Assembly: GCA_949825045.1 (NCBI GenBank)
Contig: OX463829.1
Coordinates: 6,386,001 to 6,450,000, forward strand
Source: Argyresthia goedartella
Taxonomy: Eukaryota > Arthropoda > Insecta > Lepidoptera > Argyresthiidae
DNA length: 64,000 bases
Direction of reading: 5' to 3'
Positions 13,597 through 39,343 of this stretch are shown here, in pieces. Both the position numbers and the translations under genes were made by a program. Within the stretch, counting starts at the first letter, position 1, and every line of letters begins with the position of its first letter. The notes below the pieces were generated by a model. It ran no database searches, was not told the DNA's origin, and saw only the letters and a list, made by a program, of their open reading frames with translations.

Positions 13597-15274
13597 CTAG
13601 TTCAAGACGTGTGGGACTGCCGCTCCATCCTCATATAGGCCTGTGCGATTCCACCTATGGCGGGTACCGCGGATGCACATGCTGCTAGCCCTGATGATGG
13701 CGGTTTGAATTCTTGCTCGTAGCCAGCCCATTATTGTGGCAGGGGTCCGGTTCCAGTGGTCCGCCAGCGTTTCGGCGAGGTGTTTAGTGAATGATATCAT
13801 TTGTGGAGCAAAAACTCCGTCGACAGAGGTTACTAAAGGGGTGAAGGTGGTGTGGCGCGTCTCGCATGGGTCGCAGTACTTCCTTTTCTTTTCTTCTTCA
13901 GCTGAACGAAGGACAGCCGCTACGGGGCGTGATGCGTGGGAGGGAGCGTCGGTGTCTATGACACGGATATCAAATAACGCCTCCCTCTGGGCAATCCATA
14001 CCCCCCGACAAGCCAAGTCTCCGCGCAGCCCAGTATCGCCTTCGGAGATGACTGGCTCTTTCGTGACGTTTCCCCAGGCTTGCTGGCACAGTTCACAGAA
14101 AATATCCCTTATTTCGTTATGTCTGCGTGTGATAAGGCCACCTGTTTTGCAGCACAAGGCGTGGTCCACGTTGAAGTTGTCATTGCCGCAGCCGTCGCAA
14201 GTCGCAGGCATGGAGATTGGTGTGCGGTGGTATCTTATGGCCAGGGCATCTCTAAATTCGTGGGGTGATAAGTCGAAGTTGTCTTTTCTTGTCGGTATTA
14301 CTGAAAGCCATGTTGATGTTTTTGTTTTCGTTTTTGTCGCTATTGATCTTTCTATTGCTCTTTTCTTTTTGGATGGTAATTTTGTTAGAATGCTTTCTAG
14401 AGTTTCGTTCTCGTATGTTTCTTTTTCCTTGTTTCCTTCCTTTCTTGCGTCACGCAAAGAATTGTAGTGTTCAGCAAGGTTTATGTCTTTTATCTCGGTT
14501 AGGGCTGTTGAAAGTATTGTAGATCCCTGTTTTGAGATTTGGTATGCACGGTTTGGTGTGTTGAAGGGGTCAGAAAGGGCAAGTCCGCCTTTGTGGACTG
14601 GGAGGGTAAATAGCTGGGTTTCAAGTTTTGTGATTTCGCCTCCGATTAGTGTTGGTATGAATTTGTCGTGTAATGTGTTAGTTAAGGGTTCAAAAAGTTC
14701 TTCTGAATTTTTTAAGACACGTAGTAGGAAGGACCATTTAAACTGAGCTGCTTTAGTTAGGGCAGTGTAAGCGGCTTGAGGTGAGTTTTTGCAGATTGTT
14801 GTGGGTTTCTCGATGATAGATATCCATTCGGTTACATTCTTTTTTACGAAGTCGTCCCCTCCTGTCCCTATGTAGCCTCCTAGGAAGCGGGAGCCGGTAA
14901 CTATGGAGACGTTGGTACCGGAGAACGTCTTTTCTGCGGTAGACTTGTCAGTTTCTGACACTATTAGAAATGATTTTTTACCTTGTGGTAAGTATCCGTA
15001 TGCTGGGCCTGTTTTGTTTAAGTTTTCCCACCATTGTCGTAGGCTTTGGAAAGTGCCTTGCGCGGAGGAGTCATCGGCGTACCAGCATTGTGTGAATGTG
15101 TTTTCGGTTTTAAGTTTGTTAATTATTGGTAGTGTTGCAAGCGCGTACAGTGGCATTGCGAGTGGGTCTCCTTGGGTTACGCCTTCTCTGCTATATAGTC
15201 TTGTATCAGAATCGCGAAATACCAATTCAGCGTGGCCATTGTAAGTATTATAAAGAAAGCGGGCTAAATGAAGT
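13597..15274 (-). pseudogene. 5'-truncated non-LTR retrotransposon with R2-type endonuclease domain
   Basis: The frame from about 15274 to the TAG at 13597 encodes over 540 residues. Numbering from an internal start at 15225, REGVTQGDPLAMPLYALA (13-30) and the active site YADD (49-52) mark the reverse transcriptase palm. A Cys/His cluster follows: CDGC at 343-346, then H355 and C358, with RHNE at 368-371. RGD (401-403) and FDIRV (418-422) fit the acidic positions of a restriction-like endonuclease fold, as in R2/R4-type LINEs. The element would nick its target and reverse transcribe in place. The upstream palm, fingers and N-terminal DNA-binding domain are absent, so it is a 5'-truncated copy. 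The open frame is otherwise intact, suggesting recent insertion. It interrupts the IS630-like pseudogene. No poly(A) or clear TSD was found. Confidence 0.75.
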
Positions 15275-16157
15275 CAAAGATGTAAGGAAGAGTGGTATGC
15301 CTGTTCTACACCTTGATGAAAGTTATATTCATACTTCGCTCAATCATGCAAAATGTTGGCAAAAAGAAAAAGAGCCCAGCGTATCTAAATCTGTAGGTAG
15401 AGGAAAAGATACATAACTGTTTATTGTGGTGGCAAGACTGGGTTTGTCCCGAATGCTTTGTTAATTTATAACGATATAGAAAAAAAGCTGATTTCCATTA
15501 CGCAGTGAATTAAGTTAATTAAAAAAAATGGGTATTCAATAAATTATTACCTAAATGAACCCACCTGTATAGTCATTGACAATTCTAGATATCATTCTAG
15601 CCAAATAAAGAAACCTCCAAGCTTGGTTAATAGAAAAAATTAAATCGCAGGATGGCTTAGATAAAATAATATTGCCTACGCTACCAAAGCCACCAAAAGT
15701 ATGTTGTTGTTTTTGGTAAAATAAAATTAACCTGACCCAGTATACGAGATTGGTAATTCAGTACAGGAGTATGGTCACAAAATACTACGACTGCCGCAAT
15801 AATATTGTGACCTAAATCCGATAGAAATGATATAGGGTATAGTAAAAGGAAAAGTTGCCACAAAGAATGTTGTGTGTTGTGTACAAAACTGTTTTGAGGA
15901 TATAACAGCTGATACACGGAATAATTGCTGTGAGCATACAAAAAAACTAGAAGAGGCATTAGATGCAGGAGGTTAGTAATTAATTGAGATATTGAACAAC
16001 TTTTTATAAATGTTGGCGGTAGTGATAGTGAAACATCCAGTCTTACAATTGACAATGACTGATATGTCCAGAATTGAACCAGGACAATCTGATCATGAAG
16101 ATCATGAAATGTCATATAAATCTGTTGAATATTTAGATTCTGAATTTTATGACTAAT
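15275..16157 (+). pseudogene. IS630/Tc1-mariner-like transposase pseudogene, 3' part
   Basis: The DDE catalytic region can be read across broken frames: MPVLHLDESYIHTS near 15300 (first Asp), TCIVIDNSRYHSSQ near 15565 (second Asp), then GHKILRLPQ and CDLNPIEMI near 15775-15820 (third acidic position), and a C-terminal KKLEEALDAG near 15945. Multiple in-frame stops separate the blocks. These segments continue the 13030-13596 fragment, so the intervening 1.7 kb LINE is a nested insertion. The family is recalled from motif order only. Confidence 0.7.
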
Positions 16158-16159
16158 GA

Positions 16160-17195
16160 AAAAAAAAACATAATCATACCGGTTTTATTTTCTATATTTT
16201 AACCTGGCTACAGGTTCTTTTTTTAGTGGAAGATTATTTCATAATAATAAAACATAATTGTAGTCAATGTGACTTCCATAATGAGAGACTTTAATATGAG
16301 TGTTTCATATTAACAACACACGAATATTTTATGCCTTATTATATACAGTTACATACACTGCTTTATTTCTACATATCATAACCTCTCTGTGATTGTTAAT
16401 TTATAGTTATATTTAAAATGTAATTAATAATAAGTTCGATTTTAAAATAAGTTCGGCAATTAGCGAAGCGGCCAATTTGCATGGGTATTGCTATATATAA
16501 AGTTATTTTGCGCCCTCAGACCAGGTATTTTATGTTCCTGGATGGGCTTCACTTATTAACCTCTTTTGAATCTCCATATTTATGAATACGTTTTGTGGCG
16601 GAAGTTTTAAGTTTATCCGGTTTTATGTTACCGCTAGAACCCGAAGTGCGGCTACAGCAACTTTTAGCCGCTTACAACTAGGTGTAGCCACTTACTCTTG
16701 GGTAAATCTATTATTAACCGATTGTTTTCGGGTAAAACTAGGTCAAAACAAACCCTAGTGGCTGATAGCTGGCTGGCTACATCTAGATCCAACCGGTCCC
16801 TTTTGGATAAAACTAGATGCAAACAAGTTCAAACGTGTAAGACCCTTACTCCCGCGTTCGTCCTTCGGTCCCCGCGCTTGAGATTTTATACGCATTGTGC
16901 GTTGTACAAAATTCTAATTCAAAATGGCTGTGAATTAAAACCTACAGACAATTTTTTTTTGGAACAATTGCAGTGTTTATTAACTACCAAGCATGGTGAT
17001 AATCAACTACTCATCCTATACCACAGGGTCCGCCCTTTATTAGGGAGTAGTGAACATCCCTTGTTCTTTGGATGATGGACTACTGTCCAATACTACCTGT
17101 GAAATACTTTTCAAGTTTATACAAGACGTTTACATGGATGGAAAATATCCACGAAGCGTTCTACGATACAATACTGCCGTTTGAAGTGCTTCGAT
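16160..17195. other. No gene recognised; degenerate short repeats
   Basis: Bases 16660-16830 contain loosely repeated AAAACTAG and TAAATCTA-like words, and open frames there have no recognisable content. A segment near 17090-17150 encodes IQDVYMDGKYPRSV but matches nothing I know. It may be the start of the integrase pseudogene that follows. Confidence 0.4.
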
Positions 17196-18448
17196 GTTTG
17201 TTGTATTGTCGATATCGAAAAGTTAATTTCTCCTGTCTCGAGTACCGAAAAAATCAAATATAACGTAAAGAATAAAGACTTGTTCGATGTTATTCAGGGC
17301 AGGGCGGAGGAAATTATTGTAGAAGCTAAAAAGAAGGAGGGGATTCTTTTGTATATTATTTTATGTAAGCCATGTCAAATGAAACAAAAATAGACCAAAA
17401 AAGCCCTTGTTTTAAAGCCTATTTTATCAACAGCCTTTGCCAAGTAGATTTAATAGATACGCAGACAAACCCAAACTCACGAAATTCGTACAATTTCATC
17501 CGTTACAAAGTAAGACAGCGGAAGAGATATCAAATAAACTACTTGATATATTTTGTATCTTTGTCCCTCAATTCTTCAATCGGACAATGGCAGGGAGTTC
17601 GCAAATCGAGTTGTGAAGATTGCATGGGAAACCATGACATAGGTAGTGTTGAACGTGCATCACGATATTGATAAATGCTTAAGACTTGGATGGCCGACGA
17701 GAACTGCGAAAAATGGTCTGAAGGTCTACGATTTGTTCAACTGATGGAAAATAGATCTTACCATCACGGAATTGAAAGATCGCCATAATAGGCAATTTTT
17801 GGTTCTGAGATCATCTGTTCTGCCACCCGAAGTCCTTGCAAATATAGAAACTGAGGACGATCTTGAGATGATTCTTAGAGAGTTAGTCGGTGATGAGAGT
17901 GACATAACTACTAAAGAGAATGAGCCATCAAAAGAAGAAAGTTACCAGGAGTCAATTAAAATTACATATTGCGGTTTCTGTGACCAGAATGAGAAGAAAA
18001 AATGTGAGCTGTGTGAAAATAAACTAAAAAATAAAACTAACAGGAAAGGCGCACAGGATGGTTTGGTAAAACAAGCTATAAAAAAAAAATAAGAGTAAAA
18101 TTCCTGACGTGGATAGAGGTAGAGGAGACTTTCCTAATGGGTAAATGGTTGTAGTTGAATATAACGACAACGGGTAATACAAATTGGAAACCAGTACAGC
18201 ACTATAACAGAACTATTTTCAAGGAATAAGTTCACGATGTGTAAGTCTACATTTTTGGATTTTGATGTTGTTTCAACCGAAAAGAAATCACAACGCCAAA
18301 TAGCCAATGCACACATCGACCTCTGGTGGGCAAGGCTTTAACAGATGCCACTGCAAAACCAAATGTGGCAATAAAAAGTGCCTCTGCAAAGCTGCATGTA
18401 TTTTGTGCAACTCAAAATGTCACTCAAGTTTAAATTGTTCTAATAAAT
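17196..18448 (+). pseudogene. KRBA2/SCAND3-like rve integrase pseudogene with Cys-rich tail
   Basis: Broken frames follow the order of KRBA2-like integrase proteins: a KIKYNVKNKDLFDVI segment near 17255, CKPCQMKQK near 17375 (end of an HHCC-type zinc region), CQVDLIDTQTNP near 17440 (first catalytic Asp of the integrase core), and SKTAEEISNKLLDIFCIF near 17510. After a frameshift come GSVERAS-like residues, then LPPEVLANIETEDDLEMIL at 17820 on. The C-terminal frame near 18315-18445 gives RCHCKTKCGNKKCLCK and CNSKCHSSLNC, a Cys cluster. Several frameshifts and stops make it non-functional. KRBA2 and SCAND3 carry retroelement-type integrase domains; whether this copy belongs to an LTR element or a cut-and-paste element is unclear. 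Confidence 0.65.
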
Positions 18449-18452
18449 AAAA

Positions 18453-18952
18453 TTTATACACACGTATCATAAACCCTCTTTACTGCGTACAAAAACCGCA
18501 CGTTACGATCAGCATAATGTTAAACTACTTGGTAAAAACTCATTTCTTATCTGAAAAATTACACATTAGGACCATAATGTGTAATTTTTCGACATATTAT
18601 GACATTCAAATTTCGAACGCCGACGCCCGCCTGCATGCCGCGCCCCTAGTTTGTCTGTGAAGTTGGTACTGACATTTAAATTTCGAACGCCGACGCCCGC
18701 CTGCATGAAGTTGGTACTACAGAACAAGCTAAACAACTGTAGAGCCACAATGCCGGTCAAACATACGGTTCCTGAACACATAAAAGAGAGCTTATGATAT
18801 GTTTGTAGATAAACTAGTGTATGTAACTGTACATAATTAGGCATTAAAACTCTCGAGTGATATTATTATGAAACTGGCCTTCGGCTCGTTTCATAAACCC
18901 GCTCTCGAGTTTTAATGCCCTCCATTATGTAGCAGTCACATAAACTACTATT
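18453..18952 (+). repeat. MITE family A, copy 2
   Basis: It starts TTTATACACACGTATCATAA and ends CATAAACTACTATT. It has the CTCGAG-bounded palindrome near 18855-18915. An internal ~60-bp duplication around TTTCGAACGCCGACGCCCGC is shared with copy 3, marking a subfamily. Confidence 0.85.
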
Positions 18953-19649
18953 CTATTTCGAGAGGCTCATTTATTACTTTTTTATTATGCTTATTTCATT
19001 TTATTTATAATCTTTTTGTTGTGAGTTTCTTTATTATTTTTTAAGTGGCTCTCGATTTGTTTTGAGTATGCTTTATGCTGTGTAAGTTTTGAGATTTTTG
19101 AGTTAAAGTAAGAATTTTCTAAATCGTCCCGCAAATATTTTGTATTCTTATTCATTTGTTTATGTTGGTGTTTTTCGGTAATTCCAAAGTAGGTGGTAGA
19201 TAGTAATTCGCGTTTTTTCCTTGAGCGAGATTCGATTCCTTTGAGAGCCTGGGTGGTTTGTATCTCGCTAACAGTCTAATTCTGCATCACGGGAAGCACG
19301 GTTTGAGAAATATTATTACCTGTTATTGCCAGTAGTTTATCGAAAGCATAATTTATCTTGGTGCATTCATAAACTTTACCAAACGACTAAATATCTAGAG
19401 CATTTATGAATTTAGATCTATTTTCCTTCTAGAAGTGTCTTGTTTTCGCGAATTTTAATTTTGGGGAACCTATTGATTATTCGCTTCTTGACTGGAATGT
19501 TTAAAATAGTAGAGCCTTATGACCCGAGAGTCCTAATTAAATTAAATTTGTTTCGACATTATCGAAATTTGTGACAAAAATGTCATATAATCTTACTGAA
19601 AAGTTATATGTAATGACAAGTAATTATTTGTGTTTGTGATAGGAAATCA
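18953..19649. other. No gene recognised
   Basis: AT-rich sequence between a MITE and the P-like element. I see no open frame of note, no repeat shared with the rest of the window and no splice structure. Confidence 0.5.
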
Positions 19650-19657
19650 GTCAAGAG
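19650..19657. repeat. Target-site duplication of the P-like element, left
   Basis: GTCAAGAG, repeated exactly at 24748-24755 on the other side of the element. Confidence 0.92.
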
Positions 19658-20209
19658 CACAGATATCGAGAGATAGGCCCTTGGCGCTAAGCTTGTATCG
19701 GAACCAGTGTCGCCGAAAACTAAGAACACGCATACATTTACACCACTCGTACATCAATCCCTCCGCTTTTATTGGTCAGTGCAATGTCATGCACCTATCG
19801 TCCGAACACACCCACACTACCGCAGGTATACTAGCTAGTCGAGCTAGTGTTGGGACAATGCAAGGACAGCGTGTATCATCGATCGATTATAATTTATAGA
19901 CACTGGTATAGACAGCCGTATACAATGCCGGGTTCTATAAATAAAATAGTAAATTGTTTGTAAATACGACATATTTATTTTACAAGAAATACCTATTACT
20001 GTGTATACAGGGTGTAACAGATGCGGGGTGACAAGCCGAAAAGAGTTGTTTGCGACATATTTTGAACGATTTTCTCTATGAATCTGATTTGATCAGAGCA
20101 ACTTTATTTTTTACTTCCCCATACAAATCATCTGACCTGCAGCTCGGCCCAAAATGTACTGAAAAGTGAAAAACAATGCTGATCAAATCAGTTTAATCAA
20201 GAAAGATGT

Positions 20210-23200
20210 TCAGAATGATGGCCTTAACAACCGTCTTTCGGCATATATACCCTTTCTGTAAAATCCTGTACAGTTAAATACTATATTAAATACTATATAT
20301 TGACCAGAAAAATGTAAATATTTATTAAGAACTTGCCGTTTTGACAATTGAGGCGTAGCGTTTTTTGCCAAGTAATGCAGTCTTATATTGGTATATCTTT
20401 CCATTACAGCTTTTATCAGTAATATTAGATGATTATCCATTGGGTTTTGTTCGAATTGGTGAAAATCTATTTCGTTGAACAGATTCATGCCAATGAATCG
20501 GGGTAGTGCTTTAGACATTAATGATTGTTTTAGATTTTTAACCCTAACCTTTATTTTGTCTTTGGTAAGCACAGTTGATTTTATGATCACTTCCATGTTT
20601 TTGCAAATTGTTATAACGTCATGGGAAGGATATATTAAGCCGCCTTTATCCTTGAGTTTTATAAACTTATGTGTATCGTCCGGGCCGCTTGACAGTAGCG
20701 CGCTTGTGCATACGTCGCATTTCACAGTTTTAATCAGAGCATGAACGACGAAGCCAGCTACGTAAGTTATGGTTTGTGAGCTGTATTGTGTTAGAACATC
20801 AACCATCATTTCTACTTCTTCGTCGAATACTGCCATTTCATGTAATATATTTATGACGTCACACTCTTCATCTCGTAATCGGGGATCGATAGTGTGGTTG
20901 ATGCGAACAGCCGATGAACATGTCAGAAGGGACATCTTTTCGAGTGCTCGGCAGTTCCCACTGTCCACGTCTCGGAGTTCTGACTTGACCATCAATTTTT
21001 TGTATATTGATTTGAATTGTCGTGCTGTTGGGTTTGTATTACAACCCCCGTCGCTTCGGATTTGGCCAAAAAGCAGCTCAAGATGGTCCTGACTAATCTT
21101 GTAAACAGGGAAGTAGCTTAGTTTTCGTTTTTTTTCAACTAGCCGAACATACAAATCTTTGAGGCTCTTTATACAGATCAAAAATCCCACAAAACCAGTT
21201 TTCCTTGATGAGTCAATTACTGCCGTACCATCCACAAGCTTCAATTTTTTCAGGTAATTTTCGGCTTTTTCCAGAAAATCAAAGATTTCAACCTTATTTT
21301 GTTCACAGATTGGCTTTTTGTAATGTAACTGGGCTACATGTCTGGAGTTCAATATATCAAATAGATTGTTGAGTATTTTCAGAAAGTTGACTGTGCCATC
21401 GACATTTTGAAAACCTGGTAAATTTAGTTCTGAGCAAAATGTTAATGCGACTGCCACACTGGTGCTGAACAATTGGGATGCCAATCTCACTTTCATTTTC
21501 TGGTTTTTAAAGAATATGTGGCCTCGACGCAATTTGTTAGCTAAGTGCATCTTTTCTTCTTCTTGGACATCGTTAAATTTTTTTAAATGTGCCCATTCCA
21601 CTTCTTTTTGGGTTTCATCAACAAAGCTTCCTTTGGCTTCAAAAGCATTCCTCAATAACTTCAACATATGACATGGATCGGGAAAGATGAAGATCGGTTT
21701 CTTTGTAACGGGATGTTCGAAATTTGTTTTTAAGTCTTCTATGTTCAGTGAGCACCCAAGTTCTTTAGTCATTGTCATATTTGCAGGGCAGCCGTCAAAA
21801 GTAAGTGATGTTATTTCGATTCCCGTTTCTTGTAACAGTTCAAGACATTGTGTAACTAGATTCGCTCGTTGTTCTCCAGTAACACCAGCGACTAGAAAAT
21901 ACCCGACAGATATCTTCCAAGGGGCATTAATTGCGGTTACTAGAAAAACTAGAGCTTCCTTTGCCTCGGGCAAAGAATCTGTATCGGCCATTTTTAAATT
22001 GCATATATCTACATATCCATGCATATACTCACCGTCCCACTCTACACGACGGCGAATGGCCATTTCATCGAGTACAACATTACACACCAGTGTATAATCA
22101 GTATTTTCAACTTTCAGCTTGATAGCTTCAAATGACCCCTTTGTAAACCCGGGGTCGGAGTCAATCGCCTCGTACCATTTCCTTATGGTGCGAACGTGGG
22201 GAAGGCAAGATTGAAACTTTTGCCGCACATATTCGTAGGCCTTAGGCGAATAAAAATGAAGTGTACAGGCAAAAGTTCTCAATTCTGCTGAGTATTTTTC
22301 AGTGGATTTTTTGTCGACAGATTGTTTTTTCTCACATCGTTCAATGAGATCAGCCACTCCTACACCTAAACCTTCTAATTGTGTGACTTGATCAGAATTA
22401 ACTAATTTTTGATCTTTAAGATCTCTCAGAACATCCTTCATGTTTAAAAATTTTTTGCGGTAGCGGCTGTTTTGTTTTTGAAGAGTTTTAATTTTCTTAT
22501 TTTTTTGCTCGAGTACGATTTCTAATTGGTCTATCCGATGGCGCAGCTTCCTCTTGCGTGGGGTCTCGAAAATGCTGTGATTTTCTTGGTCCTTGTCCTG
22601 TAATTTGTATGTTTAATTTAGTTGCTGTTAGTCTTCTTATCACAGGAATATGAATGGGCGATAGAAGTATGATAAAGAAAGAAAGGTACCTTTAAATTAA
22701 GATAAATTGGGATCAAATGTGCCTTTGCCACCCCGCATGGAAAAAGGCGTGACACTGTCTGTATGTTTACTTTTATAAAATTAAATAAAATTACAATTCA
22801 AATACATTTCTTACATTTTCATTACCTACTCTGTCCGTGGTCAGCAAAGACGGTTCTTCAGACTCAGCTTGTTTTGATGTCTAAAAATAAAGATGTAAAT
22901 AAGTAACCCGAAGATTTTTATAAATTGTTTTAATTTGACCCGATTTACATCATTGCCGTCATCTCCTTCAGACACGCATTCATTCAAATGTGTTTTCTCT
23001 GGTTTTATGGTATCCTGAGACAAAAAGGTGCAAGCAATCAGTATTCAAATACGTATCACGCAGTTTTTCATGTTAAAATTTCAAAAAAATACACCTGATC
23101 GCTGCTATCTCCTACAGAGACGCATTCATTGATATGGTTTTTCTCTGGATCTTTGGTACCCTAATAAAATAAGATGCATTACTTAAAGTTATATGTAGTT

Positions 23201-24614
23201 AGTAATGGAATTTATAATTTCAAGTAGATATTCAATTAATAATCTAGAAACAGTCTTTTTATAGTGGTATGGTGTAAGAAATATTTTAAACCTATCCATT
23301 GTATGAAATTAAATATAAATTACTAACATGAGACATCATAACTGGTATTTTCATCGTCGGCACTGCCCATGGCCACATTCGCCTGTATTTCTTTAATTTT
23401 TGAAAACATTTCTCCTCGAAATGAATTGAGCATATTTTACATTGTTTTTTTGAAAACCAGCGAGGCCCTCTCATTACCGCTTCGATCCATTTTTCTTTTA
23501 TTTTTGGTTCACTAGGAAAACTGAAACATTGATTAGCGTAATAAAATACATAACTTTATCATTGAAGCAAATCGGAACAGTAAATATAAAAATCAAAATG
23601 GCGTCCAATATTCAAAATCTAACATCTATATCATAATTGTATTCTAACCGGGTCCCCAGATATCGATTTTGAAGTAAATCGGACCAGTAACTACGAAGTT
23701 CGTAATGTCGGCAACTTTTTCAAAATATGACAGAATCATGATTGGACCTCAACCGGATCCCCAGATATAGATTTTGAGTCAAATCGGACTAATAACTATA
23801 CAACCCCCTTATCCCGACTTTTTTGCGTCGAAATTACCCGTGTATTCTCCGTTCACAGTTGTTCTGCCTCCAGAGACCCCTTTGCCTCTCTTCTTTTTTT
23901 CAACAGAATCCTTACAGCTAGAAAGAGAGGCAAAGAGGTTTATGAAGGTAGAATAACTGTGAACGGAGTTCATTCTGATTCGGACTTAGCCGAGAAATTC
24001 TCTTCGGACCTGACTGAAAGCATCGGAATTTCCGATCAATACTTATAACACCCCATTATCCTTCGTCGGGCGAGGTTTTAAACAAACTTAAAATCTAAAC
24101 TGCCTGTTTGGCAATCATTGGAATAACTAACAATAAACTTACGTATTATGAGTAATAAAATAACTATATTATTACATTAACAATATTAGTAATTGCGGAA
24201 TGATAAAATCTATCGATTCAAAAACATAATTCTCCTATCAGTATCCCCATCACTATATGTCGTCTCTGTTTGCGTGTGACAGTTCGCCTCCGTATCACGA
24301 TGCATCTTTGCTTTCGTACTTAGATAAGTGTGAAATATTCATTGCGTGTTAGCTTGGCAATACGAAGTGAAATTAAGATACAAAACAAGCAATGTAGCAA
24401 CAAACTTAGCTAGAACAACATGACATTGTCACTTTAATGTCAATTCGTGACGAATTTTCCGCGAATGATTTATTTTCGTAATAATGTTTATTTCTTGTGT
24501 TTTAAGAAGAAATAATAGTTAGAATGAGACTTACAAGTGATATGTGACACCGGCGTTCTTGGAGTTCACAATCTCGCTTCTATTTTTGCACGTGAGTATT
24601 GCACAGGTCGGCAT
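20210..24614 (-). CDS. P-element transposase (THAP9-like), six exons
   Basis: Predicted exons in transcript order: 24614-24535, 23520-23328, 23160-23095, 23014-22949, 22880-22830 and 22597-20210. All junctions have GT and AG, all phases agree, and the sum is 2,844 nt (947 residues). Exons 1-2 encode a complete THAP zinc finger that binds the element ends: C4, C9, C57, H60, plus P29, W38 and AVPTM at 79-83. Exons 3 and 4 are 66 nt each and encode similar 22-residue linkers. Exon 6 opens with a basic Leu-rich coiled coil for dimerisation. The catalytic core follows, with likely acidic residues D329 (VLDEMAIRRR), D420 (TFDGCPAN) and E659 (QDHLELLFGQ), and DPCHMLKLLRN near 459. The GTP-binding insertion expected in P transposases lies between D420 and E659. 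Length is close to the family's (P transposase about 750, THAP9 about 900). No internal stop or frameshift is seen, so it may be active. Confidence 0.88.
23560..23810. repeat. ~100-bp imperfect tandem repeats in intron 1 of the P-like transposase gene
   Basis: Units share AAATCGGACCAGTAACTA and CCCCAGATATCGATTTTGA with small differences. About two and a half copies are present. No coding content. Confidence 0.6.
23847..23968. repeat. Imperfect inverted repeat in intron 1 of the P-like transposase gene
   Basis: The arm 23847-23892 (CTCCGTTCACAGTTGTTCTG onward) is an imperfect reverse complement of 23922-23968 (ending ATAACTGTGAACGGAG). Loop about 29 nt. It may be an internal structure of the element or a small nested insertion. 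Confidence 0.65.
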
Positions 24615-24747
24615 TTTAGAAAAACAACGGAGATGAATTCATCACTGCGGTCGCCCGGTGACTACCGAGAATTTTTAATATCGAACCTGTCGGAGCTACA
24701 TTTGTTCGCACATGCCACGCCCCTCAACCTATCTCTCGATATCTGTG

Positions 24748-24755
24748 GTCAAGAG
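24748..24755. repeat. Target-site duplication of the P-like element, right
   Basis: GTCAAGAG, identical to 19650-19657. The eight-base length fits P-superfamily integration. Confidence 0.92.
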
Positions 24756-24901
24756 ATATATATTGTATGACCCCGTCAGAGCCAATGACGCAGACAGACT
24801 TAGGGCTCATTTACACGGGATCATTGTCATTCATTAACAATACGTCTCGTTAGGGATGGACTTTGACATTGCATAAGGATTCTTGTTTTTCATGATTCGA
24901 C

Positions 24902-25401
24902 AATAGTAGTTTATGTGACTGCTGCATAATGGAGGGCATTAAAATTCGAGAGTGGGTTTATGAAACTCGCCTTCGGCTCGTTTCATAATAGTATCACTCG
25001 AGAGTTTTAATGCCTAATTATGTACAGTTACATACACTAGTTTATCTACATACATATCATAAGCTCTCTTTGATGTGTTCAGCAACCGCATGTTTGACCG
25101 GCATTGTGGCTCTGCAATTGTTTAGCTTGTTCTTTAGTACCAACTTCACGCAGACGGGCGTCGGCGTTCGAAATTTGAATGTCAGTACCAATTTCACAGA
25201 CAAACTATGGACGGCACGCGGGTGGGCATCGGCGTTCGAAATTTGAATGTCATTATATGTAGAAAAACTACATATAATGACCATAATGTGTAGTTTTCCA
25301 GATACGAAACGAGTTTTTACCAAGTAGTTTAACATAATGCTGATCGTAACGTGCGGTTTTTGAACGCAGTAAAGAGGGTTTATGATACGTGTGTAGATAA
25401 A
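24902..25401 (-). repeat. MITE family A, copy 3
   Basis: Reverse orientation, from AATAGTAGTTTATGTGACTG to ACGTGTGTAGATAAAAT. It carries the same internal duplication as copy 2. It lies about 150 bp from the right end of the P-like element. Confidence 0.85.
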
Positions 25402-25955
25402 ATATCTTAATACATACTACGTATATTTGGTTTGATGAACGTGATTTTATTCGTAATTTAAGACGTCTCCGTCATTTTCCACGATTGTGATTCGTGCTAA
25501 TGGGCATACAAGACCATTACCACTGTAAAAAAAAACCTGAATCGTGGAAAAAAAAGTATTCTTCAAAAAATCGAATCGTTATCGTATGAAAGAGTTATTA
25601 TAGATATTATATAGAGATTATGTCAGGTTGTTTCTGATATTCAGATTTCCTCATTTTCCTCCCAATGTTTTCCTTCACAGTTCGCGTCATACTTTATAAG
25701 TTGTATGATGATATATAATTGAACGATAACGCACACTAAGCAACATGTTTTGCAAATAATGTCGTGCCTACCGATACCGGCTGCATCTAACCTATACAAT
25801 ACAGCTTGGTGCAATCGGCGCGCCAGTGTTGCCAACGTTGCCAGCAACACTTTTGGCGCTACATTTGACATTGTTCTGTTCTATTCGGGATGTTGTAGAG
25901 CAGGTGATAAAGTAAAGTTTATAAAAAATATATCGTCCCATTTAACTTTGGTTTT
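25402..25955. other. No gene recognised; lepidopteran repeat traces
   Basis: A short inverted repeat around TTTTCCACGATT (25478) and AATCGTGGAAAA (25540) is present. The stretch 25640-25870 resembles degraded dispersed repeats (TTTTCCTCCCAATGTTTTCC). No gene is visible. Confidence 0.4.
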
Positions 25956-25959
25956 ATTC

Positions 25960-26360
25960 GTTATAGAGTTTCGTCTACAGCGCCAAGTAAGAAAGTAAAG
26001 GAACCCGTAGAATCATTTAATTGTCCGTCTGTCTGTCTGTCTGTCTGGCTGTCAAGACCCCTTTTCTCGGGAATGAGTTCTGTTGAACTTTATATTCATC
26101 AATTACTGTCAGGTCTGTGGTTCCTTGGAGCTGTGAAAAAATGAAACTCCTATGTCAACGTAATAAAAAAATATGTTTATGGCGCGAAATTACTGAATTT
26201 GCTTAATTCATACTTGCAAGGGAATCAAAACCTTGAAACAAGGTCTTGTAGCACAAATAAAGAAAAGTATCCGAAAACAGTAAAGTTGTAGTTACTTCAC
26301 AAAATAAATATGTGAACCCTCGGTGCATGAGTCTGACTCGCACTTGGCTGGTTCAAAAAA
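25960..26360 (+). repeat. Dispersed repeat with GTCT run (variant of family B)
   Basis: It contains AAAGGAACCCGTAGAATCAT, then a GTCTGTCTGTCTGTCT run, then GTGAACCCTCGGTGCATGAG and GACTCGCACTTGGCTGG. The overall order resembles family B but the middle differs. Confidence 0.6.
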
Positions 26361-26397
26361 GAGAAAACTGATTTTTTAAATAGGAGTAACCAATATA

Positions 26398-26635
26398 TAA
26401 GGTGACATTTGATTAGATGACCATATTTATGATAGTACCCATCATTATCACCATTTTTCTCAAAGAAACATGGTTGCAAATGGAAAAAAAATATTTAATA
26501 TCAGCTGACTACAAGTTACTATAGGGGACCAAATTTTTTTTTCGCTTGCGACCATATGTGTCTTGGGAAAAATTGTTCATAATGATAGGTACTATCATTC
26601 CCTAAAATATGTTCGGCTAATTAAGTGTCACCTTG
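26398..26635. repeat. Palindromic MITE (GGTGACATTTGATTAG type)
   Basis: Left arm 26399-26480 and right arm 26540-26633 are imperfect reverse complements (AAGGTGACATTTGATTAGAT versus CTAATTAAGTGTCACCTT; GATAGTACCCATCATTAT versus ATAATGATAGGTACTATC). A single-arm relative lies at about 39180-39295. Confidence 0.75.
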
Positions 26636-27119
26636 TATACATCATTGAAAACAAGGACCGTAATGATTGATTAAATTAAGTTGATTTCGAATGAAAGTGT
26701 CATTCAGTCACGTTCTTATAATAACTCAATTTACGAATTCCAGAATATTTTTTGTGCCCCTCAATGGGATATTAGTCGGATATTTATTATTGTACTAACT
26801 GTCCGTGGCACAGCTTCGTATATGCGATTAAAAGGAACGGGCCGTTTAAATTTTAGAGGTAAAAACCAAAATTCGAATTAGATCTGCTACTGTCTTGAGC
26901 TCCCATAGAAAATCCTCATACTAAATGATTTTAGGCTTTTTAGGTTACCCTGTCCATTTTCAAAATTTTCTGGCCGCAAGAGCCTTCCCAAGACTTCAAC
27001 GAATGGTTTAAAAACAGTTGATCCAAATCGTTCCAGCCATTTGCGAGATTTGCGCTTACCAACAAATTTTGGGATTCATTTTTATTTATTTATAAATTTA
27101 GTTCCAAGATAACGTGTCG

Positions 27120-27252
27120 GTAACTAACCAAACATACGGCATTCACCGTCAACAACCTGGCAACACACAACAAGTTATTCAGCTTATTCCGCCACCGCCA
27201 GTGCTAGCAAGGCCTCCTGCACCGCTGGCAGCGCTGTTAATCCCCGAGCAAC
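27120..27252 (+). promoter_or_regulatory. Probable 5' untranslated leader/core promoter area of gene 2
   Basis: The segment before the candidate ATG is more GC-rich than its surroundings (for example GCCACCGCCAGTGCTAGC). No TATA box at a fixed distance or clear initiator can be assigned. Confidence 0.3.
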
Positions 27253-27281
27253 ATGTCGGCCACAGTCGAAAGTAGTTGGAA
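27253..27281 (+). CDS. Gene 2: candidate first coding exon
   Basis: An ATG at 27253 opens nine codons plus two bases (MSATVESSW) and ends at a strong donor, GTAAGT, at 27282. The two leftover bases (AA) plus the first base of the exon at 56036 (G) form a Lys codon, so the reading frame passes cleanly into the next exon. The ATG context CAACATGTC is reasonable, and a GC-richer, CCN-rich leader lies just upstream. A short cytosolic N-terminus is what a four-helix protein of this kind needs. The exon is short and lies 28.7 kb from the next, so a chance match is possible; RNA evidence would decide. Confidence 0.55.
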
Positions 27282-28555
27282 GTAAGTGTTGTGTTGTGAA
27301 AGTTTTGTCTGTTTATTTATATCTCAGTGTTTTTCTTGCGCTTGATGCGCGTTTCGGATAAGTTTCTACTTGAGTTCGGTTTGTAAATGATGAGGTATTT
27401 TGGTGCTAATGATGTAAGATAGAGATGTGTAATTTGCAAAATAGTTATTCCGCAGAAAAACGTGTAAGATCATATGAAAATATATAAGGTATGTGAAGTC
27501 AATTTCGGGTCGCGTTACCTCTGGTACGTAGGTACTCAGAATCATCAAATTACCTATATTCGTTAAGCCCATGGAGCCCAAAAGGTACTTAGTTCAGAAG
27601 GGGGAACTTATCTCTTAATAAGGCTTATCCCTTACAAAATATCTCTAACAATGAAAAGTCGATGGATGATTATTATAAGTTCTTGGCGCTAAACTTTATG
27701 ACGACGTTTTGTGCGAAATTACTTTTATCTATACAATTTTACAGTGAATATCCACAATGTATGACCGAATGCACATACTACCGCTCAGATAAAGATTCGC
27801 TTAAGTGTCATACTGCTGCTGCTGTCAATTCCCGAGAGAGGAACTGACAGTATTCGTGTTCTGAAAGAGATGATTGAGCACGCTTCAAAACAAAAGACAG
27901 TATTTTTAGTAACACGTCTGATAACAAGAGATAAGTATACGGTTGCACATGTATACAGGCTGACACAGAAAGTAGTCCTTAACTAGATGTTTTTAAATTG
28001 TGTTTAGTTTTTCGTCTGTTTATGTGATTTTCCTCAAGTGTCTGTTTACTATGGGTGACAGTCTAGTACTGAATGTTGAATTTCCTATTTTACGTATATT
28101 AAGTGATTGTCATCTGTTTGTTGTGTTGTCAAACAACTAATTAAATAAATAAGTCCTAATCTTGATGGGATTCAATACGGCCTGTGATACTTATAAGACA
28201 TTGCTACACGCCTTTGTTGCAATACAACTCATTTAATTAAACTCTATGCAATGAAACAAAATAAACTACCACAAAACAGTTTGAGACGAGTCGATTACCA
28301 AAACAAATCAACTAACTTCAGTTGTTTTCGCTAGAATAATAAATTAGCATGGTCAATTAAACAACGTGATTGACCTCTAGCCCTGGAGAGTAGTCAGTGT
28401 GACGAATATTCTTTTTTTAACTTGACGACGACTTTTATAGATGCCTATAATACCTACGTATAGCAAACGTATTTTACTCACAATAACTATACCATATCAT
28501 ATAGACATATTAATGAAACCTTACGGCTGAAATTTGGTTCACTTGTTTACTATTA
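27282..28555. other. Start of intron 1 of gene 2; no other gene recognised
   Basis: No coding or repeat structure that I can name. The open frames here are short and without features. Confidence 0.45.
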
Positions 28556-28558
28556 AGG

Positions 28559-28760
28559 CAGAACAGAAGGCAGAGAACCTTTGAACCGCTGAACCGATTT
28601 TAATAAAATATACCTAAGAACCATCGCAGAGAAATCTATTACCAATGAAACAAAACACATTAAAATCCGTCCACCCATTTGAGTGCTAGAGTGCCACAGA
28701 CAGACCCAGACAACGCTTCTTATAACACTCTCTTTTTCGTGGGGGTTCAAAAATAACTTT
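28559..28760 (+). repeat. Dispersed lepidopteran repeat (AACCGATTTTAATAAAATAT type)
   Basis: The words AACCGATTTTAATAAAATAT and AAGAACCATCGCAGA recur near 45760-45810 and 45895-45940. A relative with the same word order lies at 30965-31100. The family is non-coding. Confidence 0.6.
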
Positions 28761-28971
28761 GTCTCGCCTTCCTATGGTGGTGGCAAAGGCACTGCTGGGG
28801 CCACATTTGGCGTCATATTCATTAGTTAGTCCATTATGTGTGACAAGGGGATAACCTATCGCCGCAGACATAGACATAAGGAGTTTTCCTCACGATGTTT
28901 TCCATCACCATTAGATCCTTCATTTAATTTATCTAATTACTTTTAATGAGACCTCGCGAGTGATACATTCC

Positions 28972-29062
28972 TTTAATAACACATACAAACTTATGAATGC
29001 ACCTGGTTACGAACATGGAGTATGAAAGTAGCCGCACTACTAACTACATTTTGTGGTCTTAA
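28972..29062 (+). repeat. Family B middle block, partial
   Basis: TTATGAATGCACCTGGTTAC followed by GGAGTATGAAAGTAGCCGCA, as in the block at 2756-2872. Confidence 0.65.
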
Positions 29063-29427
29063 CCCCAACCTATTGATTTTTCATTCATTTGTTAAAATCC
29101 GTCAAGCTGTCTGGTCTGCAGCGGTTATTTGAAATCTAAAAACATTTTGAAAAATTCCAAAAAATGGACAAATAATATCTATTTAATTATCGAACCCGCT
29201 CACAAATATTCACGAGAATCAGTTGAGAAATATGCGGCCTGTAGAGGATAGCATCCGAACATAAAAAAGCATTTTGCCCAATTCTGAAACGGAGACGGTT
29301 CGTCGCTCGGTCAATAAATTACTAACGTCTAATTATTGTACCTATGTCATTCAAAAGGGGTCTGAACATTTCTTATGGAAGATGGCATTATTCCCCCTCC
29401 AACTTGAATTTAAACGATCATAAATAG

Positions 29428-30225
29428 GGTTTCGTACCCGAAGGGTGCCAAACGGGACCCTATTACTAAGCCTGTGCTATCCGTCCGCCCGTCCGTCCGT
29501 CTGTCACCAGGCTGTATCTCATGAACCGTGATAGTTAGACAAATGCTATTTTCACAGATAAGGTATTTCTGCTGCCGCTATAACAACAAATACTAAAAAC
29601 CGGTCAAGTGCGAGTCTAAATCGCGCACGAAGGGTTCCGTACCACCGTTCAATGGAAGATATGGTGTGGAGTGAATAGTTTGGATTTTACACAGCAAAAT
29701 ATTGTTTACAAAGTTATTGGTGCGGTTACCTTCACACTCCATGTACGTAACCAGGTGAATCCATAAGTTTGTATGTGGTATTGTTGTATGGGAGCCCCCT
29801 TAAATATTTATTTTATCCTGTTTTTTAGTATTTGTTGTTATAGCGGCAACAGAAATACATAATCTGTGAAAATTTCAACTCTCTAGCTAGCTAGGTTCTT
29901 GAGATGCAGCCTGGTGACAGACGGATGGACGGACGGACGGACGGACAGCGAAGTCTTAGTAATAGGGTTCCGTTCTTACCCGTTGGGTACGGAACCCTAA
30001 AAACAGTACATGTTAAAGGCGGCTCCCATACAACAATTCTTTCAATGCCACATACAAATTTATGAATTTTAAGTTACGTGCATGTAGTGTGAAAGTAGCA
30101 CCAACAACTTTGTAAGCAACATTTTGCTATGTATCCAAACTATTCTCTCCACACCATCCCTACCATTGTACGGTGGTACGTAACCCTTCGTGCGCGAGTT
30201 AGACTCGCTCTTAACCGTTTTTTTT
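29428..30225 (+). repeat. Family B repeat interrupted by a reverse family B copy
   Basis: The plus-strand copy runs 29428-29599 (GGGTTTCGTACCCGAAGGG to AACAACAAATACTAAAAA). It resumes after about 30003 (GGCTCCCATACAACAATTC to GACTCGCTCTTAACCG). Between them, about 29600-30000, lies a full copy in the opposite orientation, ending GGAACCCT. The word CTAAAAA flanks the inner copy on both sides (29593-29599 and 29997-30003). Confidence 0.8.
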
Positions 30226-31479
30226 TTAGACATTTGATAGCATTGCACAAATAAGCGAGCTAATAATGAGGTCCTCAGATGCCCTCAGTGTGCGAGGACC
30301 TTCACAAGGAAGCTACATAAGCCATACACGAGCCCATGAGATACGTCTACAGACGGCAACTTTATTGCGTGACCGAAATCAGTCGAACCACATCCTCATC
30401 ATCATCACAAATGAGCGTCACATATTGCTATTCTTTGTTACAAAATATCGTCTATCTCAGGAAATGCCCGGCTAATGACGCATGTATTTTTTTATGCGCC
30501 TATCTTCCTTACAATAGTCATTTAAATAACATTACCACAATACTATTACACCAGTTTGCTGTAATGTAAGTCATCTTTTCCTGTTTTCATTGACGTTTAC
30601 GACAGATGTTGTTAAGTTCGGCTTAAGTTTTGAAACTGCAAATAAAATGTGAATTTAGATCATTCTGTATTTGTAGAGTGTGAAGGTACAAGTTTTTGTA
30701 GGAGAGTTTAGCTTTGCTATCGTTGCGTCGTATAAAACCTCATCCATAACATCCATCATCAACTGATGATGATAGCACCTTTTCATCAGTCTTCACCTAT
30801 CACTTTCGTATTGTTTTGTTATCATTGGTTACTTGACAAGGGCTGTCAACATAGACACTTTTCATGAACTGTCAAAACGTTTTTAACCCCCGATGAAAAA
30901 GGTGATCATAAGTTCGGAACGTCTGTCTGTAGGTATGTCTGTGTAATTGTCTGTCGCATTCTAGCGCTGAAACGGGTGGACGGATTTTAATGCGGTTTTC
31001 TGTAAATGGTAGTAACTTCTCTGCAATGATTATAGGCTATGTTTTATTAAACTCGGATGTGTTGTTCGAAAGTTATCAGCTTAACAAGGAAACAAGTCAG
31101 CCACATTTTAGACTTGACATTTCATTTATTGTTTGTGTTTTTCATGTTTTAGATGTTTTATTTATAGTTATTCTACGTCAGTTGTATAATGGAATCATGG
31201 GGTTGTTAGTTGTGACGTCACGACACATTGTTGTCTAATGGTGGTATTTTTTACAGAATATGATGTTTAACAAATGTAAGTGCTGCATTGATTACTTGAA
31301 TATTTACAATTTAGATATCGACGAACTCTTTTGTTTATAAGGCTTCAATGTCTGACATCATTTTTATGTGTCTACATAGTCTATTAGCTAATTTTCGAAT
31401 ATAAAAATCATGTGCCCTAATTAGAAGTAAGTGTATACTACTGATAACAAGAAGATATTAAAAGTAACCCGACCGCATT

Positions 31480-31585: not shown

Positions 31586-32089
31586 TATTCAATTTTCGCT
31601 TACATTTTATAGCCTATGTCACTCCCACAATTGAGACATATCCAACAACAAAATCCGTCAAGTCGTTTGGGCTGGCGCATGCTAACAACGGTCTTATATA
31701 TACAATCATTCTTACATGAATACGCTCGAAAAACATTAACCTCCTTCCTAAACATTAACAGCGTCACGCCTTTTCCCATACGGGGTGGCAGAGGCACAGT
31801 TGTGCCCTCTATTAACCAAGTTTGTCAACAATTTTGGTATTTGTTGTAATGGATCGTGTTTATTTTGTTATGTGATTTTGCACCGATGCTGAAGAATGGT
31901 GGTGTACTACGCATTGTTCTTCTTACTAGATAAACATTGATTGTACTGGAAAAAGAATTTAGAATCGTTAGATTAGATCATCATTTGCTCAGAGGGTACA
32001 TTATGTAGTGAGACAACAATTAGGTATTAGACTTCACACTATTTTCTTTTATGTAGCCTTGGTAGCCTATCCTACTTCTATCTCAGACC

Positions 32090-33350
32090 ACTCTTCCCCT
32101 TATGTCCTGTGCCGCCTGTGCCCAGTCCGGCAAAAACCGGTTCAGGTCGTCCGGCCATCGCCGTCTCGGCCTGCTTCTACGCCGGAGTCCGCAAGTGACT
32201 CCTAGGAGTATTCTCCTGTCGGTGGCAAGTCCGGCCCATTGTGGGGGTGCATGCGAGAGCGTGGTCTGCGGAGTGTGTTCTCGCGCGGAGCGCGGGAACC
32301 ACTTTGGTTGCGGGGTCGAGGACTTATGGTTGCCTCATGCCCGCGGCGTCAACTCGGGGGGTAACGTCCCCCCCGTACTTGGGTGGCCCATACTTGTCAG
32401 GGGCCTCGTGTGGCCTTCGTTGTGCTGTGCTTTCGCCGTCTATTGGCATACACTGGCGACAACGGTGCGGGAGCTTCTTCTTCTTCACTGTGCCGTGCTT
32501 TCGCCCTCTTCTGCGGGCTTACATTGGCGACAGTGGGATGAGCAGCAACTCTCTTGGGAGTGGTCTGCCTTCAGGCGGACGTGCGTGATGCGGAGCAATG
32601 TCGTGGAGATGTGCGTGGCGGCTGTTGTCGGCGCAATCGTACATGCGCCGTGCTAGCCGCGCGACGAATTTCTCCACGGTGGGCATCCGGGTATCCCTCA
32701 TGATGGTGGTGTTGCGCACGTACCGCCCGGCTCCCGTGATCACCCGCAGGGAGATGTTCTGGAACCGCTGCAGCCGTGCCTTCTGGGTCTTCGACAGCAG
32801 GGCGTACCATGCTGGAGCCGCGGCGGTGAGCCGCGAGCGCACATAGACCTTGTACACCCGCAGCTTGGCTCTCAGAGGCAGGCTGGACGACAGGTCAGGC
32901 CGGAGCATTGCCCGTGCGGCTTTGGCCCGGTTGATGCAGTGTTGCACCATTGGGACTATGCGCAGCGAGCAGTCGATGTTGCAACCGAGGTATTTCACCG
33001 TCGATTGCCACTCGATGTCCCGGCCCCTCAACTGTAGCGGGGTCGGACGGCGGGAGCGGGTAGTCAACAGGGCTGTTGTCTTCCCGACGTTCACCGCGGT
33101 CCGCCACTTGTCCAGCCAGGGCGGCAGCAGGTCCAGGAGTCGCTGCATCTTCCTGCAGGCGAGCTCAATTTTGCGCGACGACGCGAAGTAGGCGCTGTCG
33201 TCCGCGTAGAGGGCGAGCACAACGTCTTCCACCCCCTCCTCGAGATGGCCCTCGAGTGTGGGGATGTCGTTGGTGTAGAGCGCGTAGAGCACCGGCGAAA
33301 GGCAGCTGCCTTGCGGGACTCCTGCGCTGATGGCCTTCGTCTGGGAGTGT
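32090..33350 (-). mobile_element. 5'-truncated jockey-type LINE
   Basis: This GC-rich island stands out from its AT-rich surroundings. The minus strand carries the C-terminal reverse transcriptase frame (stop at 32519), followed by about 430 bp of GC-rich 3' sequence toward 32090. The homologous coding stops near 33350; sequence from 33350 to about 33620 is open but not recognisable as reverse transcriptase. No poly(A) tail or TSD was identified. Confidence 0.65.
32519..33350 (-). pseudogene. Jockey-clade reverse transcriptase, C-terminal part
   Basis: The frame stays open upstream to 33640 (373 codons). Residues from about 100 on are typical of jockey-clade LINEs: ISAGVPQGSCLSPVLYALYT (104-123), the active site LYADDSA (144-150), a thumb region with VKYLG, and a C-terminal stretch with LRVYKVYVRSRLTAAAPAW and FQNISLRVITGAGRYVRN. 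The fingers domain and the apurinic-type endonuclease are absent. The first 95 residues of the open frame look unrelated and Pro/Arg-rich, so the true junction lies near 33350. The enzyme would reverse transcribe LINE RNA at a nicked target. No stop interrupts the conserved part, so the copy is fairly young. Confidence 0.75.
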
Positions 33351-33737
33351 GCATTCTCGGGGGTGCATGCAGCACACGTGTCCAGTCCAGCCCAGCCCCC
33401 GTAGTACGTTGATCGCGGGGGGTGTCGCGATGCGGGAAAGTGAGGGACGGAGCTATTTCGAGCGTATAGCTGTCTCTTTCTTTCCCTCGTCGCTGCACCC
33501 CGCGGGGGTCCTGGGGGGTGATTCTCGCGACATCGACACCATATATGGAGTGGTTTTGTATGCGATATTGTGCGAGATAAGGCCTCCTTCAGCCTAGCGG
33601 GGTTTGCGCCAACGACGTCAGCAATAGTGAAATACAACAATCGATAGGGAATACTTTGAACTATTCATAAGACGACTGTTTTATATTCAAGTTGCAGTAA
33701 TATTAAACACAGACTGAAAACCTTGACTTGTGTTTTT

Positions 33738-33990: not shown

Positions 33991-34224
33991 AGGTTATTAA
34001 AGCCATTTTTCCTTTAACGATTTACCAAAGTAAATTGTTAAAGAGAGAGAGACCCTTTAACGATTTACTTTGGTAAATCTCTCTTTACCCTTCCAAAATG
34101 AAAAAATGTGTGGAAAAAACCGAGCGAAAGTGGCAAATAAAAAACATACATAACAAAACTATTTTTTACTGAGGTATTTTTATTTATTTAGAGAGGTCAT
34201 AATGTGTCATATAAATAGTTCCGG

Positions 34225-34430
34225 GGCTATCCATTGTATTGAGACAACCTGGATCAGAAGTCCAAATTCAAGGTTTGCCGGTGGAGCGAAGTATTCAGTG
34301 GCCAAGTTTGTACACCGTGTTAGGATAGGCAGGACACATGTTGAGGAGTTTGCGCTTCAGTGACAATGGAAGGTCGCTCTTTATCAGCTCTTCGCAGACA
34401 AGGTAGCTCTTCCAGGCCTTCGATATTCGT
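34225..34430 (-). pseudogene. RTE-like LINE reverse transcriptase fragment
   Basis: The minus strand encodes AWKSYLVCEELIKSDLPLS followed by LKRKLLNMCPAYPNTVYKL, similar to the region after the palm in RTE-type LINEs (AWK..., LPLxLKRKLxxxC). A second, shorter piece of the same region lies at about 41490-41570. Confidence 0.5.
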
Positions 34431-34455
34431 CTATCGATTTCCTTATCCTGCCTTT

Positions 34456-35043
34456 TCAGGGTTCCGTACCCAAAGGGAAAAACGGGACCCTATTACTAAG
34501 ACTTCGCTGTCCGTCCGTCTGTCTGTCACCAGGCTGAATCTCATGAACCGTGATAGTTAGACAGTTGAAATTTTCACAGATGATGTATTTCTGTTGCCGC
34601 TGTAATAACAAATAAACAACAGAATTAAATAAACATTTAAGGGGCTCCCATACAATAAACGTGTTTTTTTTGCTCGTTTTTTCTCGATATTGATAACGGC
34701 AACAGGTAGACGCTTGAAATATTCACAGAATATTTGGTTATATATTCACTTTAAAATTAATTCATTAAATTAAACTAAAATCAATAATTTAAGGGGTGCT
34801 CCCATACAATAAACGTGTTTTGTTTTCTCGTTTTTGCTCGATATTGATAACGGCAATCGGGAGACGCTTGAAATATTCACAGAATATTGAGAAATTATTC
34901 ACTTTAAAAATAAATAATTAAATTACAATAAAATTAACATTCAACGGGGGCTCCCATGCAACAACCGTGTTTTTTTGCCGTTTTTATAGATAATAGTACG
35001 GAACCCTTCGTGCACGAGTCAGACTCGCACTTGGCCGGTTTTT
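34456..35043 (+). repeat. Family B repeat, full length, with internal tandem duplication
   Basis: Starts AGGGTTCCGTACCCAAAGGG and ends GACTCGCACTTGGCCGG. The segment GGCTCCCATACAATAAACGT through ATATTCACAGAATATT occurs twice in tandem (about 34640-34740 and 34800-34890). A third partial unit follows. Confidence 0.8.
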
Positions 35044-37435: not shown

Positions 37436-37439
37436 CAGA

Positions 37440-39295: not shown

Positions 39296-39343
39296 AGAAC
39301 TTGCTATCAGCTGATCGGGTCAATGTACTGGGGGCCGAAAATT

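Follow-up and report, generated by a model that had tools for sequence, protein, structure and literature searches.

An apparently near-intact P-superfamily transposon with a predicted single-exon catalytic core in the lepidopteran Argyresthia goedartella

Ends, gene structure and domains of the element

The 64,000-nucleotide stretch of Argyresthia goedartella DNA analysed here (assembly GCA_949825045.1, contig OX463829.1, positions 6,386,001 to 6,450,000 of the forward strand; hereafter the window) contains a P-type element of 5,090 bp at window positions 19658-24747, with its transposase gene on the minus strand. This is very probably a full-length, autonomous-type DNA transposon of the P superfamily inserted in a lepidopteran chromosome, a confidence that applies to its identity and way of working and not to present activity. 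It is bounded by terminal inverted repeats (TIRs) of sequence CACAGATATCGAGAGATAGG, located at 19658-19677 on the plus strand (the 3' end relative to the transposase gene) and at 24728-24747 on the minus strand (the 5' end), which are identical at 20 of 20 positions; past base 20 the two ends differ. A search of the window allowing up to three mismatches recovered the two ends only, and none of 100 shuffles gave any match. Adjoining each TIR, at 19650-19657 and 24748-24755, lies an exact 8-bp target site duplication (TSD), GTCAAGAG. The mere occurrence of this octamer is little informative because it is found five times in the window (shuffle mean 1.24, with 1 of 100 shuffles reaching five); its weight comes from abutment to both TIRs, which we estimate to arise by chance about once in 65,000 cases (4^-8). 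The two terminal features by which P-superfamily membership is judged, TIRs and an 8-bp TSD, are thus both present, as an earlier sequence-only reading of this DNA had described.

The transposase gene is predicted to comprise six minus-strand exons with GT...AG splice signals throughout and agreeing phases, which join into 947 codons plus a stop without an internal stop, reproducing the model of that reading. Exon 1 (24614-24535) carries the start codon and the first part of a THAP domain, including C4 and C9, and exon 2 (23520-23328) supplies the remainder, with C57, H60, and AVPT at residue 79. All four C2CH residues, which we take to be the zinc ligands of the domain, are there. A linker is encoded by exons 3 (23160-23095) and 4 (23014-22949), of 22 codons each, and by exon 5 (22880-22830), of 17 codons. 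Exon 4 is a repeat of exon 3, with 50 of 66 bases identical, and together with flanking sequence the two form an 86-bp repeat of 76% identity. Exon 6 (22597-20210) contributes 795 codons and the stop and is assigned by Pfam, an AlphaFold2 model, and Foldseek to a long N-terminal helix, a helix-turn-helix (HTH), an RNase H domain with a GTP-binding insertion, and a C-terminal domain.

A protein search returned 312 matches, and the comparisons made here use the 120 that are listed (hereafter, the listed relatives). Counting an exon as filled when more than 70% of its columns are occupied, exon 1 is filled by 5 and exon 2 by 25 of the 120, low counts that arise in part because the THAP region is absent from many of these 120 proteins; the C57 column holds Cys in 28 and a gap in 76, and the ligand columns are gap-free in at most 32. 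Exons 1 and 2 are jointly backed by alignment to the solved THAP domains 2d8r and 2jtg, and exon 2 also by Pfam. Exon 3, placed by splice signals and frame, is filled by none of the listed relatives, exon 4 by 11, and exon 5, whose donor was selected to keep the frame, by 14.

Two introns hold repeats of their own. Intron 1 contains, at 23562-23968, a 30-bp motif in three diverged copies spaced 105-107 bp apart, together with an inverted repeat of 46 bp (87%); this may be a nested insertion. In intron 5, a 56-bp stretch (22714-22769) is 86% identical to window positions 31749-31802 on the opposite strand, marking a small dispersed repeat within the element.

The predicted protein matches six Pfam families, every one above its curated cut-off. 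The exon 2 frame matches the THAP family PF05485 (E 4.9e-11), and the other five families lie in exon 6, on the minus strand: in the numbering of the spliced protein, these are the Tnp_P_element HTH (PF12017, residues 212-293, positions 22175-22420, E 7.9e-24), the N-terminal part of RNase H (PF21787, residues 300-433, positions 21755-22156, E 3.7e-44), the GTP-binding insertion (PF21788, residues 461-581, positions 21311-21673, E 1.7e-43), the C-terminal part of RNase H (PF21789, residues 651-685, positions 20999-21103, E 2.9e-18), and THAP9_C (PF22824, residues 755-906, positions 20336-20791, E 7.9e-07). A sequence search of the PDB returned four matching sequences, with Drosophila P transposase first (E 9.6e-26, residues 255-689), followed at the N-terminus by THAP-domain proteins 2 and 1; the alignment to 2d8r and 2jtg spans residues 4-83. 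All three catalytic residues are kept, D329 (22067-22069), D420 (21794-21796), and E659 (21077-21079) corresponding to D230, D303, and E531 of Drosophila P transposase, and the GTP-contact residues mapped on the alignment are identical at eight of eight positions (residue list from the accessible part of PMC7776569). All 120 listed relatives have D420 and E659, and 118 have D329, with a gap in one of the remaining two and a Glu in the other.

An AlphaFold2 model of exon 6 alone, built on an alignment of 49 of the listed relatives, has a mean predicted local distance difference test score (pLDDT) of 81.1 and a predicted TM-score (pTM) of 0.78, with most of the core at high confidence. Foldseek searches with this model ranked two P transposase structures at the top, 6p5a (E 2.0e-21, target TM 0.74) and then 6pe2 (E 2.1e-21, target TM 0.72). 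The root-mean-square deviations of 16.8 and 21.7, respectively, indicate that the domains are not superposable as one rigid body. RAG1 and Hermes follow with far weaker scores, the hAT transposase Hermes at ranks 9, 11, and 12 with E above 1e-3. The comparison of the spliced protein with solved structures that the sequence-only reading proposed thus puts P transposase first both by sequence and by modelled fold. The protein combines the features that mark the P superfamily, namely a C2CH THAP domain, a P-type HTH, an RNase H domain split by a GTP-binding insertion, and a DDE triad. Judged by its sequence, then, the element is a TIR pair with an 8-bp TSD around a putative P-domain transposase with conserved active-site and GTP-contact residues, and the P-superfamily identity assigned from the letters alone is borne out by the ends, the Pfam families, the PDB match, the mapped residues, and Foldseek.

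Thirteen of the listed relatives carry an organism name and divide into seven from Lepidoptera (two from Chilo, two from Euphydryas, and one each from Spodoptera, Parnassius, and Mythimna), four from Hemiptera (two each from Uroleucon and Diaphorina), and two from Coleoptera (Callosobruchus and Acanthoscelides). Among the matches listed, the moths Chilo suppressalis and Spodoptera exigua supply the nearest relatives that carry an organism name. A quick tree was built from 51 rows, namely the 40 best relatives, nine more named ones, the window protein, and the Drosophila P core, with 71 of the 120 excluded; it pairs the window protein with the relative P0001 (69% over 733 columns; Shimodaira-Hasegawa-like approximate likelihood ratio test [SH-aLRT] 99). 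The pair falls in a nine-row clade (SH-aLRT 99) that includes Chilo and Spodoptera proteins among others; the Drosophila P core sits on a very long branch, so that its placement carries no meaning. The P proteins of Euphydryas, Parnassius, and Mythimna and a second Chilo protein lie outside the nine-row clade, which points to several P lineages in Lepidoptera.

State of preservation, alternative readings and proposed mechanism

Several observations weigh against the reading of this locus as a full-length, autonomous-type element, or limit what can be drawn from it. The TIR search, with up to three mismatches, gave no trace of a second copy with these ends in the 64-kb window, and a blastn comparison of the element with all remaining window sequence gave one match only, the 56 bp from intron 5. 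Subterminal repeats common to both ends (positions 21-420 from each) are not above chance: none is longer than 10 bp, a length reached or exceeded by shared words in 135 of the 1000 mononucleotide shuffles, which preserve base content and not dinucleotide content. Palindromes of 10-12 bp were seen inside single ends in the same interval. In the gene model, the donor of exon 2 is ambiguous, as a second GT that lies 15 bases before it (end 23343) is also in frame, and that of exon 5 was picked for frame: a GT four bases on (end 22826) closes the frame after 186 or 181 codons, and the chosen donor also reproduces the 947 codons of the sequence-only reading. Exons 3-5 are unsupported or weakly supported, resting on splice signals and frame, and the linker joins are plausible but unproven.

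The C-terminus also deviates from the family. In 111 of the 120 listed relatives the protein stops at the position of window residue 918 (often ...GQ); of the exceptions, two (P0010 and P0104) have tails of their own past this point and seven are shorter. In the window copy the codon after 918 is TAT (20299-20297), and the frame continues for 29 codons (20213-20299, minus strand) to residue 947, crossing a 12-bp tandem repeat at 20274-20298. The transposase frame therefore does not end where the family ends; the family's usual stop has probably been lost from this copy, which would make it near-intact rather than pristine. The extension is modelled with confidence below 50 and is probably unstructured.

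Apart from the stop, the copy bears little sign of decay. Of the 82 columns that at least 95% of the listed relatives conserve, the window protein differs at two (positions 382 and 493), compared with one for the median relative, and 27.5% of the 120 differ at as many columns or more, so that its deviations are within the range of its relatives. The age of the insertion was bounded by simulating the decay of a 2,757-bp frame at assumed rates, with transitions at twice the rate of transversions and 75% of indels taken to be frame-breaking. At 0.1 indels per substitution, the simulations kept an open frame in 47% of cases after 0.25% substitutions per site, in 4% after 1%, and in 0.3% after 2%; with no indels the values were 77% at 0.25%, 35% at 1%, 14% at 2%, and 4% at 3%. 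Given 0.1 indels per substitution, a frame of this length is thus unlikely to survive divergence of more than about 1%, a soft bound that derives from assumed rates rather than observed copies. The identity of the TIRs (20 bp) and TSDs (8 bp) is a loose age bound that also counts among the weaknesses of the case, as 30% of TIR pairs would still be identical when each copy had diverged by 3%. Measured against neutral decay, the insertion probably took place recently.

The most probable alternative is that of a freshly dead P copy, mobilizable in trans through its TIRs but with its own transposase impaired by the lost stop and 29-residue tail or by unsuspected splice or amino acid changes. We rate this only a little below an even chance; it overlaps with the preferred reading, as the identity of the element is undisputed and only its working state is in dispute. 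The end at residue 947 rather than 918, the deviations at positions 382 and 493, and the two uncertain donors speak for it, but the active-site and GTP-contact residues are intact, more than a quarter of the listed relatives deviate equally or more at conserved columns, and the tail is modelled as disordered beside a confident core, so the fold need not be disturbed. The complete THAP transposase described in the sequence-only reading stands as regards the P domains and the active-site and GTP residues; the usual C-terminal stop is missing, and the linker exons are unproven.

A single copy in the window and an open frame would also suit a domesticated THAP9-like host gene around which inverted repeats lie by coincidence, yet this is very improbable given the 20/20 TIRs and abutting 8-bp TSD found here, both of which human THAP9 lacks according to the accessible part of PMC7776569. 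A domesticated THAP9 gene would show no TIR or TSD; both occur, and this candidate was rejected. Least probable, to the point of being negligible, is a hAT or Kolobok element: hAT elements make 8-bp duplications and Kolobok elements encode THAP domains, but exon 6 holds five P/THAP9 Pfam families, among solved structures P transposase is the best match in both sequence and fold, with Hermes well down the ranking, and the TTAA duplications that Kolobok makes are not seen at the element.

Read as a P transposon, the element is a candidate with its own ends, for which the conserved residues and the 8-bp TSD suggest a cut-and-paste mode as in Drosophila P. The superfamily is characterized by GTP-dependent excision with a 17-nt staggered cut. 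By analogy with Drosophila P, the THAP domain would find sites near the element ends, the transposase, using GTP as its cofactor, would bring these ends together, the RNase H domain (D329, D420, E659) would cut the element out, and the excised DNA would be joined to its target with an 8-bp stagger whose repair would yield the TSD. All five predicted introns lie 5' of the catalytic core. On the predicted gene model, retention of any of them should produce short fragments containing THAP sequence, and splicing control, if any, would have to act on the THAP and linker introns. We tentatively suggest, as a rather unlikely scenario, a presently mobile lepidopteran P element with a single-exon core that is controlled in the germline through the upstream THAP and linker introns (the duplicated linker exon included) or by PIWI-interacting RNAs (piRNAs) alone.

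Other elements in the window

A repeat of about 500 bp occurs in five places (18457-18952, 24902-25395, 5123-5475, 38482-39030, and 47914-48403), and two copies in opposite orientation (91%) flank the P element beyond its TSDs. The idea that this inverted pair, about 496 bp each (18457-18952 and 24902-25395), bounds a larger composite element was set aside because the repeat is found at three more places in the window; that idea is further disfavoured because one copy has inverted ends of its own (38481-38568 and 38943-39030, 82%).

A Jockey-like long interspersed nuclear element (LINE) fragment lies at 32522-33664. Among the 70 matches listed for it, 47 carry an organism name, of which 43 come from Lepidoptera; the four others comprise two bacterial records and one record each from a beetle and a salamander. 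The bacterial reverse transcriptases (P0163, Acinetobacter baumannii; P0168, Pseudomonas aeruginosa) share 60% identity with the fragment over about a third of its length and most likely represent contamination of bacterial records. The mostly lepidopteran relatives of this fragment, like the moth origin of the nearest named transposase relatives, lend indirect support to the lepidopteran-looking genome of the sequence-only reading. A BEL/Pao long terminal repeat (LTR) retrotransposon at 48402-55975 has LTRs of 593 bp with 99.2% identity (four mismatches, one gap) and looks recently inserted; its frames encode DUF1759 (49997-51493) and, in one long frame (51494-55357), Peptidase_A17, integrase, and DUF5641.

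On the minus strand, a 558-codon frame at 13597-15273 has no Pfam match at E 0.001; by eye, it resembles the C-terminal part of a reverse transcriptase with a zinc-knuckle/endonuclease-like region. A PIF1-like helicase fragment (1720-2763, minus strand) probably has a Helitron origin. A 205-bp inverted repeat (934-1138 and 1456-1660, 98% complementary, 317 bp apart) is perhaps a young fold-back element or one resembling a miniature inverted-repeat transposable element, and short repeats at 39347-39430, 44684-44767, and 45012-45095, of which two carry a tRNA-like box (GGTTCGATCC or GTTCGATCC), perhaps belong to a tRNA-derived short interspersed nuclear element. In the window no Rfam match reached the gathering score, and ARAGORN called no tRNA. 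Fourteen window frames have at least 150 codons, and seven of these were run against Pfam. With stops written as X, a Pfam scan of 34001-49002 in six frames found no domain, by a method that can lose weak domains, and a scan of two of six frames of 16001-31000 found nothing beyond the P element; scanning with stops as X missed PF22824, one of the five families found with exon 6 alone.

Comparison with known P-type systems

The element resembles the Drosophila melanogaster P element in its 8-bp TSD, in its THAP, HTH, and RNase H domains with a GTP-binding insertion, and in 11 of 11 catalytic and GTP-contact residues. The TIRs of Drosophila P begin with CA, as do those of the window element, but differ from them in sequence. 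They are also longer, at 31 bp (accessible part of PMC7776569) compared with 20 bp. The window element differs further in its 5,090-bp length, its six predicted exons, and a catalytic core contained within one exon, and the two proteins share 21-22% identity in the aligned fold. In Drosophila, control operates through the third intron, whose retention leads to a shorter repressor of 66 kDa (PMC7776569, same part). This switch has no counterpart in the window gene model because HTH to stop forms one 795-codon exon.

The zebrafish Pdre2/THAP9 transposon shares a P-like transposase, TIRs, and an 8-bp TSD, and its excision by zebrafish THAP9 is described in the accessible part of PMC10983969; the THAP9-type C-terminal Pfam domain of the window protein is a further likeness. 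The TIRs of Pdre2 measure 13 bp and its subterminal repeats 12 bp (same excerpt), whereas shared subterminal repeats in the window element are not above chance. Anopheles gambiae P elements likewise have TIRs and an 8-bp TSD, with reference proteins of 876-895 amino acids, but three putative exons (four in AgaP3) compared with the six predicted here (PMC1562414, as far as its accessible text goes). Within the nine-row clade, the Chilo suppressalis protein P0002 is 54% identical over 97% of the window protein and the Spodoptera exigua protein P0008 67% identical over 61%; unlike the window protein, both end at the equivalent of residue 918, and by eye their linker differs.

The sequence-only reading implied that P elements are rare outside Diptera, which the literature does not support. 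In its accessible part, PMC6327564 reports the superfamily in all arthropods surveyed, four lepidopterans included, and PMC7764229, seen as an excerpt, reports P elements of Helicoverpa armigera. The available portion of PMC4735498 records P among moth sequences integrated in Autographa californica multiple nucleopolyhedrovirus (AcMNPV), with 66 and 23 in its two Trichoplusia ni columns and 0 for Spodoptera exigua; it thus places T. ni P sequences in baculovirus genomes, and reports both transposition and recombination for the integrations. A table in the accessible part of PMC5704228 also lists moth P integration into baculovirus. In IMG/VR viral contigs, the exact TIR was not present, and 11 stretches fit the peptide patterns searched for, none of which is a relative by tblastn. 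No title devoted to a lepidopteran P element appeared among the titles listed by our literature search, in which subscription journals are thinly covered. P elements outside Diptera are no surprise, being already known from Lepidoptera. A near-intact non-dipteran copy would nevertheless permit tests of whether GTP-dependent transposition and control resembling hybrid dysgenesis are general in insects. Moth P elements as such are not new; to the known systems the window adds a single copy with clear boundaries, a gene model, and a predicted intron-free catalytic core.

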